Shown here in pieces: positions 7,326 through 58,422 of a stretch of 64,000 nucleotides of DNA. The notes under the pieces are model-generated. The model ran no database searches. It saw only the letters and a program-made list of their open reading frames with translations, and was not told the origin of the DNA. Within the stretch, counting starts at the first letter, position 1, and every line of letters begins with the position of its first letter. The position numbers and the translations under genes are program-made. The DNA lies in assembly GCF_016863255.1 (NCBI RefSeq), contig NZ_BOON01000028.1, forward strand, positions 1-64,000, read 5' to 3'. Source of the DNA: Planosporangium mesophilum. Lineage in GTDB: Bacteria; Actinomycetota; Actinomycetes; Mycobacteriales; Micromonosporaceae.

Positions 7326-8228
7326 TCACGCACCAGCTGAGACGGTACGTGTGGCCAGCCAGTACCGGCGCAGCCCGTCGGGCAGGCTGATGCGGGGGTG
7401 GTGGCCGAGCAGGAAGTACGCGTTGAACAGGTCGACGGTCACGTCGACGCTCTCCGGCTGCGGACCGGCGACCGTGAAGGGGACACTCAGGCCGGTGACG
7501 TCGTGGACCACGTCGAGCAGTTCGTCGAGCGTGACGGTGTGGCGGCCGGCGACGTTGAACACCGCCTCGCGGACGTTCACCGTCGCGGCGGCGAGCGCGG
7601 CGCGGACGGCGTCGGTCACGTACAGCGGTTGACGGTGGCCGGCCTGCCCGGACAGGTCGACCGGCGTCCGGGTACGGGCGGCGCGCACGATCCGCGGGAT
7701 CAGCGCCGCGGGCTGCTGGCGAGGGCCGTACACCTCGCCGTAGCGCAGCGCGACCACGGACATCGCGGCTTCGGCGGGGATGGCCCGGCACAGGCAGAGC
7801 TGCTCGGCGACCTGCTTGGCCAGGCCGTACCCGGTGGTCGGCTGCACCGGGTCGGTCTCCCGGTTGGGGCCGGGCCGGCCGTAGACGCCGGCGCAGGAGG
7901 CGAACACCAGCCGGCGTACAGACGCCTCCTCGCAGGCGTCCAGCAGCCGGCTGGTGGCCATCATGTGCTCGGTGAACAGGTTGGCCTGCCGAACCGGCGG
8001 GGCGGCGAAGTGGAACACCGTGTCGCAGCCGGTCACCGCCTCCCCCAGCTCGTCCTCGCCGAGATCGGCGCGCACGTACGTGAACTGTCGGTAGTGCCGG
8101 GCACCGTCGAGGTTGGCCGCGACCGGGTCCCGGTCGAGGCCGACCACCTCGAAACCGTGGATGAGCAGCGCGTCGACCAGGTGCGAGCCGAGAAATCCGG
8201 CCGCGCCGGTGACCAGCATCCTGCTCAC
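7326..8228 (-). CDS. NAD-dependent epimerase/dehydratase (extended SDR)
   Basis: A 300-aa extended short-chain dehydrogenase. The NAD-binding VTGAAGFLGSH is at the N-terminus, GLDRDP follows the second strand, and the catalytic Tyr-Lys is TTGYGLAKQ (about 160-170). Such proteins usually act on nucleotide sugars; the substrate cannot be read from sequence. GTG 8228 has AGGAGG 10 nt upstream, which lies over the stop of the APC permease gene, so the two are co-transcribed. Confidence 0.88.
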   Translation of the reverse strand: MSRMLVTGAAGFLGSHLVDALLIHGFEVVGLDRDPVAANLDGARHYRQFTYVRADLGEDELGEAVTGCDTVFHFAAPPVRQANLFTEHMMATSRLLDACEEASVRRLVFASCAGVYGRPGPNRETDPVQPTTGYGLAKQVAEQLCLCRAIPAEAAMSVVALRYGEVYGPRQQPAALIPRIVRAARTRTPVDLSGQAGHRQPLYVTDAVRAALAAATVNVREAVFNVAGRHTVTLDELLDVVHDVTGLSVPFTVAGPQPESVDVTVDLFNAYFLLGHHPRISLPDGLRRYWLATRTVSAGA

Positions 8229-8240
8229 GGGTCGTCCCTC

Positions 8241-9674
8241 CTAGACAGTGGCGAGGTGCGCGGCCGGAGTGGGCGCGCCGAGGCCGATCGCGGCGTACAC
8301 GTGCGGGCGGGCGCGGCGTAGGTACAGCGCCCAGCCGACGCCGGTCAGGGCGAGCACGGCGTAGCTCGCGGGGAACGCCCAGCACAGCGGCGAGCCGGCG
8401 GGCACGCCCAGCAGTTGGTCACAATGAGCCAGGATCAGGTACGCGATGACCGCGAGCCCGGCCGAGGCCAGCGACGGCGCGACGATCCGCTGCCAGCGGC
8501 TCTCCCCCGCCGGGTGCGCACCGAGAAACCCGACGACCGACACCGACGTGGCCGCCACAAGCAGCAGGACGCCGAACGCCCCGGAGATACTCAGCCAGTA
8601 GAACAGCCGGACGAGCGGGTCGGCGCCGCTGGCGGCGTAGCCGGCGATGACGGCCAGGCCGATGGCGCTCTGCGCGAGCGAGGCGTACTTCGGCGTGCCG
8701 GTGCGGGCGCTGGTGCGGCCCAGCCAGGCGGGCAGGACGCGTTCCCGGCCGAGCGCGAAGGCGTACCTGGCGACGGTGTTGTGGTACGACAGCGCCGCGG
8801 CGATCAGGGAGCTAACGAACAACGTCTGTCCAATGTCGACAATCAAGCCGCCGCCGACATGACCCGCCACGAACGGCAGGTCGGTACCGTGCCGTCGGGC
8901 GGCGGCGTGCAGGTTGGCCGGCCCGATCGCCACCGACATCGCCCACGCCGACCCCGCGTACAGAACGGTCATCAACGGCAGCGCCAGGTACGTCGCGGCC
9001 GGGACGCTGCGCCGGTGGGTCTCCTCACTGAAGACCGGGGCGCCCTCGAAGCCGATGAACGCGGTCGCCACGATCGCGAACGCGACCCCCATGCCGGCGC
9101 CGGTGAGGCTCTGCGGGGTCAGCGTGGCGACGCTGAGCTGCCCGCCGTACGGGTGCGTCAGGTCGACGCCGACCAGGACGACCAGCAGCACGATCTCCGC
9201 GACGAGGAACCCGGCCAGGATCCGGCCGTTGAGGTCGATGCGCAGCACGCCCATCGTGGCGACGAACGCCCAGGCGGCCAGCGAGCACAGCCACCACGGC
9301 AGGGGTACACCGAGCGTGTCGCGCAGCAGGCCGGCGGTGGCCGGGCCGATCGCACCGTACGTGCACACCTGTATCGCGCCGTACGCGGCGAGCGCCACCA
9401 GCGCGGCGCCGACGCCGACCGGCCGGCCCACTCCCCTGGCGACGTAGCTGTAGAACACGCCTGCGTTGCGCACCCGCCGCGCCATCGCCACGTAGCCCAC
9501 GCAGAACAGGCCGAGCACGATGGCGACCAGCACGAAGGCGAGGGGCAGGCCGACGATGCCGGTGACCGCCCAGCCGACCGGCACGACACCGGCGACGACC
9601 GCGAGGGGCGCCGCGGCGGTCAGCACGAAGACGATCACATGCGCGGTACCGAGCCGGCCGAGCGCGAGCGTCAT
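8241..9674 (-). CDS. APC-family amino acid permease
   Basis: A 477-aa transporter of the amino acid-polyamine-organocation superfamily with about 12 membrane helices. Family features are GYVAMARRVRNAGVFYSYVARGVG in helix 2-3, FIGFEGAPVFSEE in the helix 6 region, and the long alternating hydrophobic pattern. GGAGACCTC precedes the ATG at 9674. It stands between the GPP34 gene (19-nt gap) and the epimerase (12-nt gap). Substrate unknown. Confidence 0.92.
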   Translation of the reverse strand: MTLALGRLGTAHVIVFVLTAAAPLAVVAGVVPVGWAVTGIVGLPLAFVLVAIVLGLFCVGYVAMARRVRNAGVFYSYVARGVGRPVGVGAALVALAAYGAIQVCTYGAIGPATAGLLRDTLGVPLPWWLCSLAAWAFVATMGVLRIDLNGRILAGFLVAEIVLLVVLVGVDLTHPYGGQLSVATLTPQSLTGAGMGVAFAIVATAFIGFEGAPVFSEETHRRSVPAATYLALPLMTVLYAGSAWAMSVAIGPANLHAAARRHGTDLPFVAGHVGGGLIVDIGQTLFVSSLIAAALSYHNTVARYAFALGRERVLPAWLGRTSARTGTPKYASLAQSAIGLAVIAGYAASGADPLVRLFYWLSISGAFGVLLLVAATSVSVVGFLGAHPAGESRWQRIVAPSLASAGLAVIAYLILAHCDQLLGVPAGSPLCWAFPASYAVLALTGVGWALYLRRARPHVYAAIGLGAPTPAAHLATV

Positions 9675-28458: not shown

Positions 28459-28573
28459 ATCGACCCCGTCCATGGTCGTCTCTTCACGCAGGCGCACGCG
28501 CATCCGCGTACCCACGATCCGCTGGCGCCCGCGGATCCCGCATGCCCGCGGCTCTACCCCACAGGAGATCTCT

Positions 28574-29635
28574 GTGCCGTTACCGCTCTCGTCCACTCCG
28601 GTCCTGGGCCGGCGCGCGTTCCTCGGCGCGCTGTCCGGCGCCGCCGTCGCCGCCGGACTGGCCGCCTGCGCCCGTGACGAACCATCGACGCACCTGGCCG
28701 CCGCCGCTCCCCTGCCCACCTCCGTCGACCCTCAGACGGCCCTGTCCATATCCATCCACACCAGCCAGAAGCAGTTCGAAGGCGCGGGGCTGCTGGACAA
28801 GTTGCCGTTCCGGGTCAAAGACTGGCCGAACCTGTCCGCCGGTCCCGACATCATCCAGGGCTTCCGGGCCCGCTCCATCGACCTGGCCAGCAACGCCGGG
28901 GTACCGCCGATTCAGGCCCGAGCGATCCAGTACGACGCGAAGATCGTCGCAGTGCAGACGGTGCCGGTGCCCATCTACAGGTTCGCCACCGCGCCCGGCT
29001 CGTCGATCTCCTCGCGGCCCGACCTCAAGGGCAAGAAGATCGCCTTCTCCCAGGGGCAGGCGCAGGGCGTCGTGGTGCTGCGCACGCTCAAGGAGCTCGG
29101 CCTCGACAAGCGCGACGTGACGCTGGTCGCCCTGACCAGCAACCAGTTCTACACCGCGCTGCAGAGCCGGCAGGTCGACGTCGCGCCGCTCGCGGAGCCG
29201 AGCCTCACCAAGTACCTCAACCAGTTCAGCGGCGACGGCGCCAAGGCGATCGACATGCACGCGGTGGACTACCTGACCGTCCTCTGGTCACCGGCCGAGG
29301 TGCTGCACGACCCGGCCAAGGCGGCGGCGGTACGGGCGTTCATCCCGTACTGGGTGCGCGGCACCGTGTGGGCCTGGGAGAACCGGGAGGCCTGGGCCGA
29401 CCTGTACTACGTCAAGGACCAGCAGCTGAGCCCGGCCGACGCGCAGCGGGCCGCGGCAAGCACGCCCCGGCCCACCTACCCGCGTCGCTGGGACAGGGCC
29501 ATCGCCTGGGAGCAGGAGACCGCCGACCTGCTCACCGCCGGGGGCTTCATCCCGAAGGTCAAGGCGGCCGATCTGTTCGACCGTCGCTTCGAGACGGTGG
29601 CGGCCGACGCCGCCCCCGCGAGCTATCAGGAGTAG
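28574..29635 (+). CDS. sulfonate-type ABC transporter substrate-binding protein
   Basis: A 353-aa SsuA/NMT1-like binding lipoprotein. Its N-terminus has twin Arg (GRRAFLGALSG) and a lipobox GLAAC, so Tat export as a lipoprotein is likely. The mature domain has the DLKGKKIAFSQGQAQG and NQFYTALQSRQVDVAPLAEP strands of aliphatic sulfonate binders. GTG 28574 has AGGAG 9 nt upstream; the open frame to 28472 is leader sequence. First structural gene of the organosulfur operon, three nt before the permease. Confidence 0.9.
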   Translation: MPLPLSSTPVLGRRAFLGALSGAAVAAGLAACARDEPSTHLAAAAPLPTSVDPQTALSISIHTSQKQFEGAGLLDKLPFRVKDWPNLSAGPDIIQGFRARSIDLASNAGVPPIQARAIQYDAKIVAVQTVPVPIYRFATAPGSSISSRPDLKGKKIAFSQGQAQGVVVLRTLKELGLDKRDVTLVALTSNQFYTALQSRQVDVAPLAEPSLTKYLNQFSGDGAKAIDMHAVDYLTVLWSPAEVLHDPAKAAAVRAFIPYWVRGTVWAWENREAWADLYYVKDQQLSPADAQRAAASTPRPTYPRRWDRAIAWEQETADLLTAGGFIPKVKAADLFDRRFETVAADAAPASYQE

Positions 29636-29638
29636 GCC

Positions 29639-30490
29639 ATGACCGACGTCCTTGCACCCCCTCAGGCGGCTTTACAGGCGGCTTTGCAGGCGCCTGTCAC
29701 CGTCGCGCCGCGCCGGCGCCGCCTCGGCCTCGGCCGCCCCATCCCGTACGGGCGGGTGCTCGGCCCGCTGCTGATCCTCGGTGTATGGCTCGCCGCCTCG
29801 GCGGCCGGCCTCCTCGATCCGCGCGTACTGCCGGCTCCCTGGACCGTGGCGGACACCGTCAGCCGGCTCGTCGAGGCCGGCACCCTGCAGGACAGCCTCG
29901 CCGTGTCACTGGGCCGCGCGGCGCTCGGCTTCACGTTCGGCGCGCTGGCCGGAGTCTCCCTCGCGCTCGCCGCGGGCCTGAGCCGCCTGGGCGAGGCCCT
30001 CGTGGACGGCTGGCTGCAGGTCCAGCGCGCCGTGCCGACGCTCGGCCTGATCCCGCTGATGATCCTGTGGCTCGGCATCGGCGAGGCGTTCAAGGTCGTC
30101 ATCATCGCGCTCGTCGTCGCGGTCACGCTCTACGTCCAGACGTACGCCGGCCTGACCTCCATCGACAGCCGGTACGTGGAGCTGGCCGAGACCGTCGGCC
30201 TGAGCCGGTCACGCTTCATCCGCGCGGTGGTGCTGCCCGGTGCGCTACCGGGCCTGTTCGTCGGCCTGCGGCTCGCGGTCACCAGTTCCTGGATCTCGCT
30301 GGTGGTCCTCGAGCAGATCAACGCCACCAGCGGCATCGGCTACCTGATGTTCCAGGCCCAGAACTACGCCCAGACCGACGTGATCGTCGTCGGCCTCATC
30401 GTGTACGGCCTCTTCGGCTTCATCTCCGACGCGGCCCTGCGCTTCGTGGAGAGGAGGGTCCTGTCGTGGCGACGGACACTCAGCAGCTGA
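29639..30490 (+). CDS. sulfonate-type ABC transporter permease
   Basis: A 283-aa SsuC-like permease with about six membrane segments. It carries the family LQVQRAVPTLGLIPLMILWLGIGE and the coupling loop ELAETVGLSRSRFIRAVVLPGALPG. It lies between the binding protein and the ATPase, and its last 25 nt overlap the ATPase gene. Confidence 0.93.
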   Translation: MTDVLAPPQAALQAALQAPVTVAPRRRRLGLGRPIPYGRVLGPLLILGVWLAASAAGLLDPRVLPAPWTVADTVSRLVEAGTLQDSLAVSLGRAALGFTFGALAGVSLALAAGLSRLGEALVDGWLQVQRAVPTLGLIPLMILWLGIGEAFKVVIIALVVAVTLYVQTYAGLTSIDSRYVELAETVGLSRSRFIRAVVLPGALPGLFVGLRLAVTSSWISLVVLEQINATSGIGYLMFQAQNYAQTDVIVVGLIVYGLFGFISDAALRFVERRVLSWRRTLSS

Positions 30491-31203
30491 CCCGCCCAGC
30501 GGTACGGGTGTCCGGGCTGGTGCGCCGCTTCGGCGACCGTACCGTCCTGGACAGTCTCGACCTCGACATCGCGCCCGGGCAGTTCGTGGCGCTGCTGGGG
30601 CGCAGCGGCTCCGGCAAGAGCACCCTGCTGCGAGCCCTCGCGGGGCTCGACTACGACGTCGCCGGGTCCGGCTCGATCGAGGTACCCGGCCGGGTGTCGG
30701 TGGTGTTCCAGGACTCCCGCCTGCTGCCATGGCAGCGCGTACTCGACAACGTGCTGCTCGGACTCGGCGGCCGCGACGCCGCCGACCGGGGCCGCGCCGC
30801 GCTGGCCGAGGTCGGCCTCGCCGGTCGGGAACGGGCCTGGCCCGTCGAGCTGTCCGGTGGCGAGCAGCAGCGGGCCGCGCTGGCCCGGTCCCTGGTACGC
30901 GAGCCGGAACTCCTGCTCGCCGACGAGCCCTTCGGCGCGCTCGACGCTCTCACCCGCATCCGCATGCACGGCCTGCTCCGCGAGCTGTGCCAGCGTCACG
31001 GGCCGGCCGTGCTGCTGGTGACGCACGACGTCGACGAGGCGATCGTCCTCGCCGACCGGGTGCTGGTCCTCGTGGACGGCCGGATCGCCGTGGACCAGCC
31101 CATCGACCTGCCGCAGCCGCGGTCCCACCGGGATCCGCGGTTCCTGGAGTACCGCTACCAACTGCTGACCGCCCTCGGGGTGGAGGAGGAGATCACCGTA
31201 TGA
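30466..31203 (+). CDS. sulfonate-type ABC transporter ATPase
   Basis: A 245-aa SsuB-like ATPase: Walker A LLGRSGSGKSTLL, Q-loop VVFQDSRLLPW, signature LSGGEQQRAALARSL, Walker B LLLADEPFGALD, His switch VTHDVDEA. GTG 30466 is preceded by GAGGAGGG. Its stop overlaps the monooxygenase ATG (ATGA). Confidence 0.94.
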   Translation: MATDTQQLTRPAVRVSGLVRRFGDRTVLDSLDLDIAPGQFVALLGRSGSGKSTLLRALAGLDYDVAGSGSIEVPGRVSVVFQDSRLLPWQRVLDNVLLGLGGRDAADRGRAALAEVGLAGRERAWPVELSGGEQQRAALARSLVREPELLLADEPFGALDALTRIRMHGLLRELCQRHGPAVLLVTHDVDEAIVLADRVLVLVDGRIAVDQPIDLPQPRSHRDPRFLEYRYQLLTALGVEEEITV

Positions 31204-32531
31204 GCCGGACACTGCACCTCAACGCGTTCCTGATGGAGGCCGGCCACCACGAGGCCGCCTGGCGGCTGCCGGAGAGCGACCCGTACGCCGCCACCAGCGT
31301 CGCGCACTTCCAGCACCTCGCCCGCGTCGCCGAGCGCGGCAAGCTCGACTCGCTGTTCCTCGCCGACTCCCCCGTGCTGTGGCACGGCCGGATCGGGCGC
31401 CGTCCGGCGGCCACCCTCGAGCCGACCGTACTGCTCACCGCGCTCGCCGGGGTCACCAACCACATCGGACTGATCGCCACCGCGTCGACCACGTACAACG
31501 AGCCGTACAACCTGGCCCGCCGGTTCGGCTCGCTGGACCACATCAGCGGGGGCCGGGCCGGCTGGAACATCGTCACCACCGCCGGTCTCGACGCCGCCCG
31601 CAACTTCAACCTCGACGACCTGCCGGCGCACCGGCAGCGGTACGCGCGCGCCGCCGAGTTCGTGGACGTGGCGATCAAGCTGTGGGACAGCTGGGACGAC
31701 GACGCGATCCTCGCCGACAAGGAGTCCGGCGCGTGGGGCGACGACGACCGCATCCATCCCGCCGCCCACGTCGGTGAGTTCTACCGGGTCGCCGGCGCGC
31801 TCGACGTGTCCCGGTCACCGCAGGGCCGGCCGCTGCTGGTACAGGCGGGGTCCAGCGAGGACGGCAAGGACTTCGCCGCCCGCTACGCCGAGGCCGTCTT
31901 CACCGCCCAGCAGACCCTGGCCGACGCGCAGGCGTTCTACGCCGACCTGAAGGCGCGGGCCGCAGCCACGGGCCGGGACCCGGGCACCATCAAGATCCTG
32001 CCCGGGATCGTGCCGGCAATCGGGGCCACCGAAGCCGAGGCGCTGGCGCTGGAGGAGGAGCTGGACCGGCTGATCCGGCCGGAGTACGCCAAGCGTCAGC
32101 TCGCGGAGACGCTGCGGCTGTCCCCCGACGACCTTCACCTCGACCGTGAGCTACCGGCCGACCTGCCCGACGAGGACGAGATCGAGGGCGCGAAGAGTCG
32201 GTACACCCTCATCGTGACGCTCGCCCGCCGGGAACGACTCACGGTCCGGCAGCTCATCGGGCGCCTCGGTGGCGGGCGCGGGCACCGCACCTTCGCCGGT
32301 ACGCCGGAGCAGGTGGCCGACGCCATCGAGCACTGGTTCAACGCCGGCGCCGCCGACGGTTTCAACATCATGCCGCCGGTCCTGCCGCGCGGCCTGGAGG
32401 ACTTCGTCGACCACGTGGTGCCGATCCTGCAGCGGCGCGGGCTGTTCCGCACCGAGTACACCGGCCGCACCCTGCGCGAGCACTACGGCCTGGCCCGGCC
32501 GGCCGGCCAGCTTGTGGGAGCGTACCGATGA
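31200..32531 (+). CDS. LLM-class flavin monooxygenase (NtaA/SnaA/DszA family)
   Basis: A 443-aa FMN-dependent class C monooxygenase of the NtaA/SnaA/SoxA/DszA branch, using reduced flavin from a partner reductase. Typical parts: HLNAFLMEAGHHEAAWR at the start, GKLDSLFLADSPVLW, GVTNHIGLIATASTTYNEPYNLARRF, DHISGGRAGWNIVTT, LLVQAGSSEDGKDFAARYAE. In this operon its likely job is cleaving C-S (or related) bonds of an imported organosulfur compound to free sulfite. GGAGGAGGAG precedes the ATG. Confidence 0.92.
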   Translation: MSRTLHLNAFLMEAGHHEAAWRLPESDPYAATSVAHFQHLARVAERGKLDSLFLADSPVLWHGRIGRRPAATLEPTVLLTALAGVTNHIGLIATASTTYNEPYNLARRFGSLDHISGGRAGWNIVTTAGLDAARNFNLDDLPAHRQRYARAAEFVDVAIKLWDSWDDDAILADKESGAWGDDDRIHPAAHVGEFYRVAGALDVSRSPQGRPLLVQAGSSEDGKDFAARYAEAVFTAQQTLADAQAFYADLKARAAATGRDPGTIKILPGIVPAIGATEAEALALEEELDRLIRPEYAKRQLAETLRLSPDDLHLDRELPADLPDEDEIEGAKSRYTLIVTLARRERLTVRQLIGRLGGGRGHRTFAGTPEQVADAIEHWFNAGAADGFNIMPPVLPRGLEDFVDHVVPILQRRGLFRTEYTGRTLREHYGLARPAGQLVGAYR

Positions 32532-33022
32532 CCGTGGCGATCCAGCCCGACCTGTTCCGATCCCTGCTGCGCCGGCACGCGGCCGGCGTCGTCGTGATCA
32601 CCGCGGCGGGAGACTCCCCTGTCGGCTTCACCGCCACCTCGTTCACGTCGGTGTCGCTGCAACCGCCCCTGGTCTCGTTCTGCCTGAACCGCACCTCGTC
32701 GAGCTGGCCCACGGTGTCGGTCGCCGGCCACGTCGCGGTGCACGTACTCGCCGACGGCCAGGAGCAGCTGGCCCGTACGTTCGCGGCCAGAGGCATCGAC
32801 CGGTTCGCCGGGCCGACGCGCTGGCGCACCGGCCGGTACGGCCTGCCGGTCCTCGACGGTGCGCTCGCCGTCCTGGTCTGCCGCGTCGTCGAGCGCATCG
32901 AGGCCGGTGACCACGCCATCGTGCTCGCGGAGCTGGTCGACGGCGAACACCTCGCCGACGACGTGGCGCCGCTGCTCTACCACATGGGCCGGTACCTGCG
33001 GGTCCGGGAAGGGAATCGATGA
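32528..33022 (+). CDS. flavin reductase (FMN-binding split barrel)
   Basis: A 164-aa flavin reductase-like protein: FRSLLRRHAAGVVVITAAG at the N-terminus, GFTATSFTSVSLQPPLVSFCLN (flavin-binding loop) and HAIVLAELVDGE near the end. It should supply reduced FMN to the monooxygenase, whose stop it overlaps (ATGA). It also overlaps the next gene by 4 nt. Confidence 0.92.
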   Translation: MTVAIQPDLFRSLLRRHAAGVVVITAAGDSPVGFTATSFTSVSLQPPLVSFCLNRTSSSWPTVSVAGHVAVHVLADGQEQLARTFAARGIDRFAGPTRWRTGRYGLPVLDGALAVLVCRVVERIEAGDHAIVLAELVDGEHLADDVAPLLYHMGRYLRVREGNR

Positions 33023-33582
33023 TGACCACACCCACGGTCTCGGTCGTCGAGCTGATCGGCAATCCGCGCGCCGGCTCGCGTACCCGGGCACTCGCCGACG
33101 CGGTCGTCGCCGAGTTGAGCGGCCGCCCCCGGATGGCCGACACGCCGTTGGGGCGGCCCAGGGTCCTGGAGCTGGCCGAGCTGGTCGGGGTGACCTTCGG
33201 GCCCCGGCCGGCCCGGGCGGTCGCACCGCTGGACGACCCGTTCGCACCGGTGAGCGCCGCCGGGCTGCTGGTCGTCGCGACACCGACGTACAAGGGCACC
33301 TACACCGGCCTGCTGAAGATCTTCCTGGACCAGTTCCGGCAGGGCGACCTGTCCGGCGTGGTCGCCCTACCGGTCACGGTCGCCGCGTCCGCGGACCACC
33401 TGGCTTCGGTGACGGCGGCCCTGCGCGACCTGCTGGCCGAGCTGGGGGCCGACGTGCCGAGCCGACCACCGGCCGTACTCGAGTCGAGGCTGGCGGCGCC
33501 GGCCGAGGTGGCCGCGGAGTGGGCCGCCTGGCACGCGGGCGAGGTGGCCGACCTGCTGTCGCGGGTCAGTGCGGCACGGTGA
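33019..33582 (+). CDS. NAD(P)H-dependent FMN reductase (SsuE/MsuE-like)
   Basis: A 187-aa flavodoxin-fold reductase: ELIGNPRAGSRTRALADAVV (phosphate-binding loop), LLVVATPTYKGTYTGLLKIFLDQF and the LPVTVAAS strand are those of SsuE/MsuE-type enzymes. Having a second, structurally unrelated flavin reductase in the same operon is common in organosulfur operons with more than one monooxygenase. It overlaps the convergent sortase gene by 17 nt, so no terminator separates them. Confidence 0.9.
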   Translation: MMTTPTVSVVELIGNPRAGSRTRALADAVVAELSGRPRMADTPLGRPRVLELAELVGVTFGPRPARAVAPLDDPFAPVSAAGLLVVATPTYKGTYTGLLKIFLDQFRQGDLSGVVALPVTVAASADHLASVTAALRDLLAELGADVPSRPPAVLESRLAAPAEVAAEWAAWHAGEVADLLSRVSAAR

Positions 33583-57260: not shown

Positions 57261-57266
57261 TATGCT
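57261..57266 (+). promoter_or_regulatory. -10 TATGCT for the nitrile hydratase set
   Basis: TATGCT with 7 nt to GTG 57274, suggesting a leaderless transcript of the three-gene set. Confidence 0.45.
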
Positions 57267-57273
57267 GCTGGTC

Positions 57274-57534
57274 GTGAGCCGAGTCAATGACGTCGGCGGG
57301 CAGACGGGATTCGGCGACTTCACGGTCGAACCCGACGAGCCGCCGTTCCACGCGGACTGGGAGGCCCGGGTCTACGCCCTCAACGCGGCTATGCTGCGCC
57401 GCGGGGTGTACAACCTCGACCAGTTCCGCGACGCCATCGAGCGGATGCCGCCGGCGGACTACCTCGCCGCCGGCTACTACGAGCGGTGGCTGACCGCGAT
57501 CGAGACCCTGACCAGCGGGCATGACGATGGCTGA
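57274..57534 (+). CDS. nitrile hydratase beta chain, N-terminal-domain subunit
   Basis: An 86-aa protein corresponding to only the N-terminal half of a nitrile hydratase beta subunit: VNDVGGQTGFGDF, then PPFHADWEARVYALNAAM and FRDAIERMPPADYLAAGYYERW. In usual nitrile hydratases this is fused to a C-terminal barrel; here that part is the next gene, overlapping by 14 nt. Thiocyanate hydrolase has the same split (scnB-scnA) followed by the metal subunit. GTG 57274 gives the normal VSRVNDVGG start. Confidence 0.87.
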   Translation: MSRVNDVGGQTGFGDFTVEPDEPPFHADWEARVYALNAAMLRRGVYNLDQFRDAIERMPPADYLAAGYYERWLTAIETLTSGHDDG

Positions 57535-57835
57535 CCCGGCCACGCGGTTCGCGGCGGGTGACCGGGTACGCGCCCTCAGCGTCGACCCGTCGCACCACAC
57601 CCGCCTGCCCCGGTACGTTCGCGGCCAGGTCGGTGAGGTCCTTGACGTGCAGGGCGTCTGGCCGCTCGCGGACGACCGCGCCCAGGGCCGGCCCGACCCG
57701 AGGTCGGAGCCGGTGTACACGGTTCGCTTCGCCGCCCACGACCTGTGGGGCGAGGGCTCCCACTGGGTGACCGTGGCGCTGTGGCAGTCGTACCTGGAAC
57801 CCGTCGGCACACAGGAGCGCCCGGAGGAGCAATGA
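57521..57835 (+). CDS. nitrile hydratase beta chain, C-terminal-domain subunit
   Basis: A 104-aa SH3-like barrel domain: RFAAGDRVRALSVDPSHHTR, LPRYVRGQVGEV, VYTVRFAAHDLWGEGSHWVTV and LWQSYLEPV, as in the C-terminal half of nitrile hydratase beta subunits (thiocyanate hydrolase alpha chain). It starts within the previous gene and its stop overlaps the alpha-subunit ATG (ATGA), so all three are translationally coupled. Confidence 0.88.
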   Translation: MTMADPATRFAAGDRVRALSVDPSHHTRLPRYVRGQVGEVLDVQGVWPLADDRAQGRPDPRSEPVYTVRFAAHDLWGEGSHWVTVALWQSYLEPVGTQERPEEQ

Positions 57836-58422
57836 CCGCACATCACCCCACCTCGCACACCGCGGCGCGGGTACGCCGACTCGAGGAACGGCTGATCGCG
57901 GCCGGGCTGACCGACGACGCCGAACTCGACGGCATCATCACCCGGTTCCTCGCCGGGGCGAGCCCACTCAACGGCGCCCGGATCGTGGCGCGCGCCTGGG
58001 TCGACGACGACTTCCGGGCCCGGCTGCTGACCGACGCCAACTCGGCCATCGCCGACGTGGGCCTGTCGATGCGCAGCGGCCTGCAGGAGCAGCGGCTGAC
58101 CGTGGTGGCGAACACCGAGACGACGCACAACGTCGTGGTCTGCACGCTGTGCTCCTGCTACCCGATCGGCCTGCTCGGCCCGTCGCCGTCCTGGTACAAG
58201 AGCGAGGCGTACCGGTCCCGGGTGGTCCGCGACCCCCGCGGGGTGCTCGCCGAGTTCGGCCTGCACCTGCCGGAGGAGACCACGATCGTGGTCCACGACG
58301 CGAGCGCGGAGAGCCGGTACATGGTTCTCCCCCGCCGGCCGGCCGGCACCGACGGGCGCACCGAGGACGAGTTGGCCGCCCTGGTCAGCCGGGAGGGTCT
58401 CATCGGCACCGCCCTCGTCTGA
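57832..58422 (+). CDS. nitrile hydratase alpha / thiocyanate hydrolase gamma-type subunit
   Basis: A 196-aa metal-binding subunit. The claw motif VCTLCSCYP supplies Cys104, Cys107 and Cys109; Thr in CTLC marks the cobalt type (iron enzymes have Ser). SPSWYKSEAYRSRVVRDPRGVLAEFG follows as in the family. It hydrates nitriles to amides, or hydrolyses thiocyanate if the set is an SCNase. No separate activator (P47K/NhlE-type) gene is next to it, and no amidase is seen, so the physiological substrate is open. Confidence 0.9.
   Translation: MTAHHPTSHTAARVRRLEERLIAAGLTDDAELDGIITRFLAGASPLNGARIVARAWVDDDFRARLLTDANSAIADVGLSMRSGLQEQRLTVVANTETTHNVVVCTLCSCYPIGLLGPSPSWYKSEAYRSRVVRDPRGVLAEFGLHLPEETTIVVHDASAESRYMVLPRRPAGTDGRTEDELAALVSREGLIGTALV

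Follow-up and report, generated by a model that had tools for sequence, protein, structure and literature searches.

A probable three-subunit, activator-free cobalt nitrile hydratase of the ScNHase kind with a split beta chain in Planosporangium mesophilum

The window, the whole stretch of DNA analysed here, comprises 64,000 nucleotides of Planosporangium mesophilum (contig NZ_BOON01000028.1, positions 1 to 64,000). At 57,274-58,422 on its + strand there are three separate, overlapping ORFs in the order beta N-half, beta C-half, alpha. The N-half gene (57274..57534, +; AnhD-type chain) runs from GTG 57274 to TGA 57534 and encodes 86 aa (9.70 kDa; PF21006, E 1.8e-28), with ATG 57262 as another possible start that would give 90 aa. 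The C-half gene (57527..57835, +; AnhE-type chain) begins within it, so that the N-half stop and ATG 57527 overlap by 8 nt; it ends at TGA 57835 and encodes 102 aa (11.50 kDa; PF02211, E 9.7e-26), with ATG 57521 as another possible start. The alpha gene (57832..58422, +; AnhA-type chain) overlaps the C-half gene by 4 nt (ATGA) and runs from ATG 57832 to TGA 58422, encoding 196 aa (21.24 kDa; PF02979, E 2e-75) with the Co-type motif CTLCSCYP followed by I112. A -10-like hexamer of a probable leaderless promoter, TATGCT (57261..57266, +), stands 7 nt before GTG 57274. The initial annotation had described a beta chain encoded as two separate halves, followed by a Co-type CTLCSC alpha subunit, in overlapping genes; this description holds in every part.

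Is the split peculiar to this strain? A genome collection was scanned with an alignment of the alpha chains of the window and of the locus L029, and the best 80 of 236 relatives were kept. Among these 80, the N-half, C-half and alpha chains are encoded as three ORFs in this order in 47; the other 33 comprise 28 with a fused beta chain (L097 and L105 being called fused by their ORF ends), 3 split in the order alpha-N-C and 2 that are incomplete. The alpha chains of all 47 split N-C-alpha loci are 59-69% identical to that of the window, and those of the other 33 at most 55.3%. The 8-nt overlap between the two halves recurs in 40 of 48 split loci (the 47 and L029), with starts picked automatically. 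A sequencing frameshift in this strain only, which the initial annotation had considered together with an alpha chain lying deep inside the fused-beta enzymes, is ruled out because the same split is found clade-wide, in 47 relatives. The distribution within the family is sparse: among 300 family genomes searched, the window's genome is the only one with a nitrile hydratase (NHase) cassette of this kind, and G065 and G094 carry split genes of the thiocyanate hydrolase (SCNase) type. A plasmid search with the alpha chain gave 178 records, one at 60-80% identity and 177 below 60%.

How is the cassette expressed? In 38 of the 47 split loci, the sequence TANNNT precedes the start by 5-7 nt, against a background of 102 of 10,851 ATGs (0.9%) in the same loci, true starts included. 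These 38 cases are not independent events, because the loci are related. The signal is absent from L046-L050, L052, L064, L084 and L089, several of which carry AGGAGG- or GGAGG-like sequences ahead of the start. The leaderless promoter suspected in the initial annotation is thereby supported at the level of sequence, and the gene overlaps suggest that translation would be coupled, probably on a leaderless mRNA.

To which class of enzymes does the cassette belong? For the phylogenetic trees, 12 of 125 loci were omitted as duplicates or incomplete, leaving 117 rows including the window and three PDB stretches. The alpha tree kept 13 of 34 Streptomyces-type rows and thus held 96 rows, and the alpha+beta tree, from which the three PDB rows were also dropped, held 93. 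The window falls in a clade with the Streptomyces canus V4I20 locus L079 in both trees, with support of 98/100 on alpha (28 rows, all split N-C-alpha; the bootstrap had not settled) and 99/94 on alpha+beta. The identities to this locus are 63% for alpha, 59% for the N-half and 52% for the C-half. The strain V4I20 is a proxy, the published ScNHase strain being CGMCC 13662; its locus differs from the published anhD/anhE primers at 0/23, 2/25, 0/20 and 2/18 positions, the best fit of 8 loci compared out of the 47. The model TIGR01323 (nitrile_alph) gives 242.7 bits for the alpha chain of the window, slightly below the cut-off of 249.85; the Modestobacter locus L046 is also below it (236.6) and the S. 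canus locus passes (267.8).

For ScNHase, the available part of the original report (PMC7329996) gives the gene order anhD-anhE-anhA, subunits of 10.41 (AnhD), 11.35 (AnhE) and 21.33 kDa (AnhA), and a quaternary structure inferred as D2E2A2. The same part states that no activator gene was found in the genome, that cobalt is inserted without an activator while AnhD serves as chaperone, and that acetamiprid, thiacloprid and BN (read as benzonitrile) are hydrated. On this comparison we are confident that the three genes form a single operon whose product is a cobalt nitrile hydratase of the ScNHase (AnhD-AnhE-AnhA) kind, with three subunits and no activator. The initial annotation had left the choice between SCNase, NHase and an intermediate enzyme; the shared clade with the S. 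canus locus, the chain sizes, the primers, the lack of the SCNase arginine and an SCNase model score far under its cut-off narrow this to NHase. The enzyme probably turns nitriles into amides, both activity and substrate being predicted. This kind of enzyme has already been described in Streptomyces, and the window adds another member.

The residues expected of an NHase are retained in both halves. Among the 28 of 49 clade members aligned, R52, E56, Y68 and Y69 of the N-half do not vary, and the same is true of R26 and R32 of the C-half among the 27 of 49 aligned. By alignment offset, R52 of the N-half would correspond to beta Arg52, and R26 of the C-half to beta Arg157, of the Pseudonocardia enzyme. 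A contribution to binding and catalysis is reported for AnhD-Glu56 and AnhE-His21 in the part of PMC13243292 available; by counting, these correspond to the invariant E56 and to H24 of the window, the latter conserved in 90% or more. The residue after CTLCSCYP divides the groups. It is I, L or V in 49/49 members of the window's clade, and R in 6/6 SCNases and in 8/8 of the f18 group described below. Of 51 fused-group rows, 49 have W, and in the other two the motif was not found. The stretch from YYE to RxPxY is 44 residues in the window and 48 in the S. canus locus, with a median of 49 over all 35 split rows read (including the f18 and alpha-N-C groups), while the median in fused rows is 83 (42 of 49 read by pattern). 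Structure models were made as monomers of the two halves only. The best PDB matches of the N-half model (pLDDT 83) are NHase beta chains, with the corresponding SCNase chain lower; those of the C-half model (pLDDT 88) are also NHase beta chains, with SCNase alpha close behind.

Does the genome encode an activator? Ordinary NHases are described as having an activator gene in almost all clusters, in the part of the review available (PMC7193024). No activator was found in the window's genome (98.55% complete, 103 contigs), where PF21006 and TIGR03889 at E up to 1 match the N-half alone. As the initial annotation had observed, neither activator nor amidase adjoins the cassette, the nearest genes being PAP2-like (upstream) and of HAD type (downstream); the search it proposed elsewhere in the genome found no activator, and for amidases it yielded eight amidase-family genes, all on other contigs and none shown as a partner. 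The search also covered 26 whole genomes with the cassette (25 reached through 25 of the 47 loci, and G427), and 23 of them have a single match to the beta N-terminal domain (PF21006). The remaining three (L050, L057 and L085) also carry a fused NHase, with an activator-type match in L050 and L057. Any beta-N match occurs in only 6 of the 300 family genomes; as a control, the 5 besides the window's all have a second, weaker match close by, which was interpreted as the activator. A local tblastn search for activators was silent in the 47 split loci, and this silence counts little because a second N-type match appeared in only part of the fused loci.

Could the cassette instead be a thiocyanate hydrolase, or function as one? 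It shares with SCNase the split beta chain and the N-C-alpha order, and its C-half resembles SCNase alpha both in sequence (2dd4_A, E 7e-7) and in the model (TM 0.76, against 0.77 to the top NHase match). The alpha+beta tree also puts the clade on the side of SCNase and its sister group (94/92), and with alpha alone the test does not reject uniting the three groups in a single clade (p-AU 0.38, the groups in this and the other p-AU tests having been named after the trees were seen). However, the alpha chain is closer to NHase (198 bits) than to SCNase gamma (143), the N-half reaches E 0.23 against SCNase beta, and TIGR03887 (gamma subunit) gives 173.4 bits where the cut-off is 291.45. That cut-off is passed by 5/5 SCNase-type loci (L008 361, L009 322, L036 364, L038 356, L040 363), two of which (L008 and L009) belong to the same bacterial family as the window. 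Joining the window's clade to SCNase while leaving f18 outside is rejected (p-AU 0.0003; 5 SCNase rows, 2dd4 not included), and on the alpha+beta tree the window's clade falls outside SCNase and f18 (100/99). The aliphatic residue after CTLCSCYP also stands where the SCNases examined have an arginine, which we presume to have a functional role there. By the TIGR03887 score, the chain scores, this residue and the rejected SCNase-only clade, membership in SCNase is not supported, and it is very improbable that the cassette works as one. It is scarcely credible, too, that we are dealing with a broken or inactive NHase in which a degraded beta gene was cut by a frameshift. The solitary occurrence of the NHase cassette among the 300 family genomes would fit such decay, but the same split is retained in 47 relatives, residues are conserved in both halves among the members aligned, and an active enzyme with this layout exists in S. 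canus, as given in the part of PMC7329996 available.

The assignment to the three-subunit NHases leaves a further question of interest, what is the enzyme used for? The initial annotation had imagined a role in sulfur release, with a sulfur operon 17 kb away. Sulfur-type genes were recognised among 10 ORFs scanned, at 28.5-33.6 kb, and end about 23.7 kb from the cassette; with this distance, and with no conserved neighbour in the flanks compared (8 kb upstream and 6.2 kb downstream), the proposed role was dropped. The genes themselves, at 28472-33579, encode an NMT1-like binding protein, an ABC permease, a luciferase-like monooxygenase and an FMN reductase, and form a probable sulfonate-type cluster. 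The upstream flank of the cassette holds an X-Pro dipeptidyl-peptidase-type gene besides the PAP2-like one, and the downstream flank holds the HAD-type gene and then TetR, P450 and alpha/beta hydrolase genes. None of the ORFs of at least 100 aa in these window flanks, the cassette aside, has homologues at more than one of the 47 split loci. A comparison of the window with 12 loci beyond the main Streptomyces set likewise gave no recognisable neighbour in common, nearly all matching ORFs being the cassette or overlapping it; the one clear exception is an ORF of Modestobacter, which lies 5.6 kb from the cassette and has homologues in 23 loci. In most Streptomyces loci the cassette occupies a conserved place near a gene that we take, partly from general knowledge, to be HPPD-like, and that scores 26.5 against the Pfam HPPD N-terminal domain, just under the cut-off of 27. 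The gene is present in the fetched DNA of 35 of the 47 loci, namely L086 and 34 whose titles name Streptomyces. At L029 (281-1426) and 35 of the loci L051-L093, the cassette lies near the HPPD-like dioxygenase and a TPR-type gene. This neighbourhood may tie the enzyme to tyrosine breakdown, or may be mere synteny.

A functional three-subunit NHase might also have a biosynthetic job, acting on a nitrile natural product, and not a catabolic one. Toyocamycin nitrile hydratase (TNHase) provides the precedent of a three-subunit NHase in a biosynthetic cluster, acting on toyocamycin, as described in the part of PMC12648386 available. In the window no amidase adjoins the cassette, and genes for a cytochrome P450 (214 bits), a TetR regulator and an alpha/beta hydrolase are found at 59.4-62.4 kb, beyond the oppositely oriented HAD gene; the conserved site near the HPPD-like gene in most Streptomyces loci points the same way. 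But outside Streptomyces no conserved neighbour was recognised. Catabolism is also possible without a neighbouring amidase, because the eight amidase-family genes lie elsewhere in the genome. On balance, we consider the biosynthetic role rather unlikely. A single NicO nickel/cobalt transporter gene is present on another contig.

Then why does an NHase of the ScNHase kind look so much like SCNase? The likeness may be due to shared ancestry. As a tentative possibility, SCNase, the f18 group with its SCNase-like Arg and the ScNHase clade come from one split-beta ancestor, or the split is even the older state. If so, the SCNase-like gene order of the window would be a homologous trait and not a coincidence, and the change from W to R or to I/L/V after CTLCSCYP would mark branches specialising on thiocyanate or on bulky nitriles. 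On the alpha tree the window's clade lies among fused NHases, and it is on this tree that one N-C-alpha clade with SCNase gave the p-AU of 0.38. On the alpha+beta tree the fused NHases and the alpha-N-C split group are on one side of the 94/92 branch (not starred), and the tests do not reject a union of the window's clade with either of two fused groups (p-AU 0.29 and 0.31).

Several other groups touch on the history of the split. The f18 group (L030, L032, L033, L041-L045) is actinobacterial, with a split beta chain in the order N-C-alpha and Arg after CTLCSCYP, and is sister to SCNase in both trees; of its eight alpha chains, seven score above the nitrile_alph cut-off, the exception being the truncated L033, and none above that of SCNase gamma. 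It is possibly an uncharacterised enzyme class between NHase and SCNase. L036, L038 and L040, from another family in the window's taxonomic order, have an SCNase-type alpha above the TIGR03887 cut-off and carry beta N and C in one ORF, so SCNase relatives with a fused beta chain exist; because of them, a single fission would require a re-fusion. In L091, L094 and L096 (about 8001-9270), which are NHases of proteobacteria, the beta chain is divided between two ORFs in the order alpha-N-C and Trp is kept. They group with the P. putida Co-type NHase on the alpha tree (99/98), so their split looks separate. The contig of L091 is titled Klebsiella pneumoniae (MAG) and its NHase groups with environmental proteobacteria; the label may be wrong.

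How would an enzyme of the ScNHase kind work here? The alpha chain would carry the Co(III) site at CTLCSC, and the N-half and C-half together would replace the beta chain, the former supplying Arg52, Glu56 and Tyr68/69 and the latter the HTRxPRY arginines; the complex would hydrate R-CN to R-CONH2. In ordinary NHases a linker connects the two halves; here most of it is absent, and this absence, with the aliphatic residue in place of Trp by the metal motif, could give a more open pocket that accepts bulky nitriles. By analogy with ScNHase, we expect an (N)2(C)2(alpha)2 hexamer, in which cobalt would enter alpha without a dedicated activator and the N-half would also act as a metal and self-subunit-swapping chaperone.

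The analysis moves a candidate thiocyanate hydrolase to a described, little studied class of nitrile hydratases. It also shows that the ScNHase class is a distinct actinobacterial clade (47 loci among the best 80 of 236), and not one or two odd Streptomyces enzymes. The traits of this clade are the lack of an activator in most genomes searched, a shortened beta linker, an aliphatic residue next to the metal motif and a leaderless-type start (38 of 47 loci); we make no claim that such clade-wide traits are new to print. Sequences from the clade could serve to express, without an activator, NHases that act on bulky nitriles, neonicotinoids among them, and the clade gives a concrete test of how SCNase arose.

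Compared with known systems, the cassette shares with the SCNase of Thiobacillus thioparus (PDB 2dd4) a beta chain in two chains, the Co-type CTLCSC and, as we take it, the gene order N-C-alpha, while the window lies in a separate clade with I/L/V in place of R after CTLCSCYP and the N-half chain of the SCNase is longer (157 aa). The review (PMC7193024), in the part available, names the SCNase order as alpha-beta-gamma-activator, so that an activator gene then follows. The ordinary two-subunit Co-type NHases (1ire, 1v29, 3qxe) have the alpha family, the motif and the beta active-site residues in common with the window; unlike it, they have a fused beta chain, in which the stretch from YYE to RxPxY is about 35 residues longer, and W where the window has I after CTLCSCYP. 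ToyJKL of Streptomyces rimosus, compared by mass only, consists of three subunits whose masses (21.2, 10 and 11.4 kDa in the part of PMC8574189 available) come close to those of the window's chains, and unlike the window it lies in a nucleoside antibiotic cluster, according to the part of PMC12648386 available. As told in the available part of PMC7329996, AnhA alone is inactive, the alpha chain of TNHase alone was reported active, and TNHase maturation is said to differ from that of ScNHase. The closest counterpart is ScNHase of S. canus CGMCC 13662, which has the same order of N-half, C-half and alpha, similar chain masses, the Co-type motif and, likewise, no activator gene found in its genome. 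The two differ in their surroundings, PAP2-like and HAD-type genes in the window and the HPPD-like gene in Streptomyces, and the N-half of the window starts with GTG, its function being predicted from sequence.
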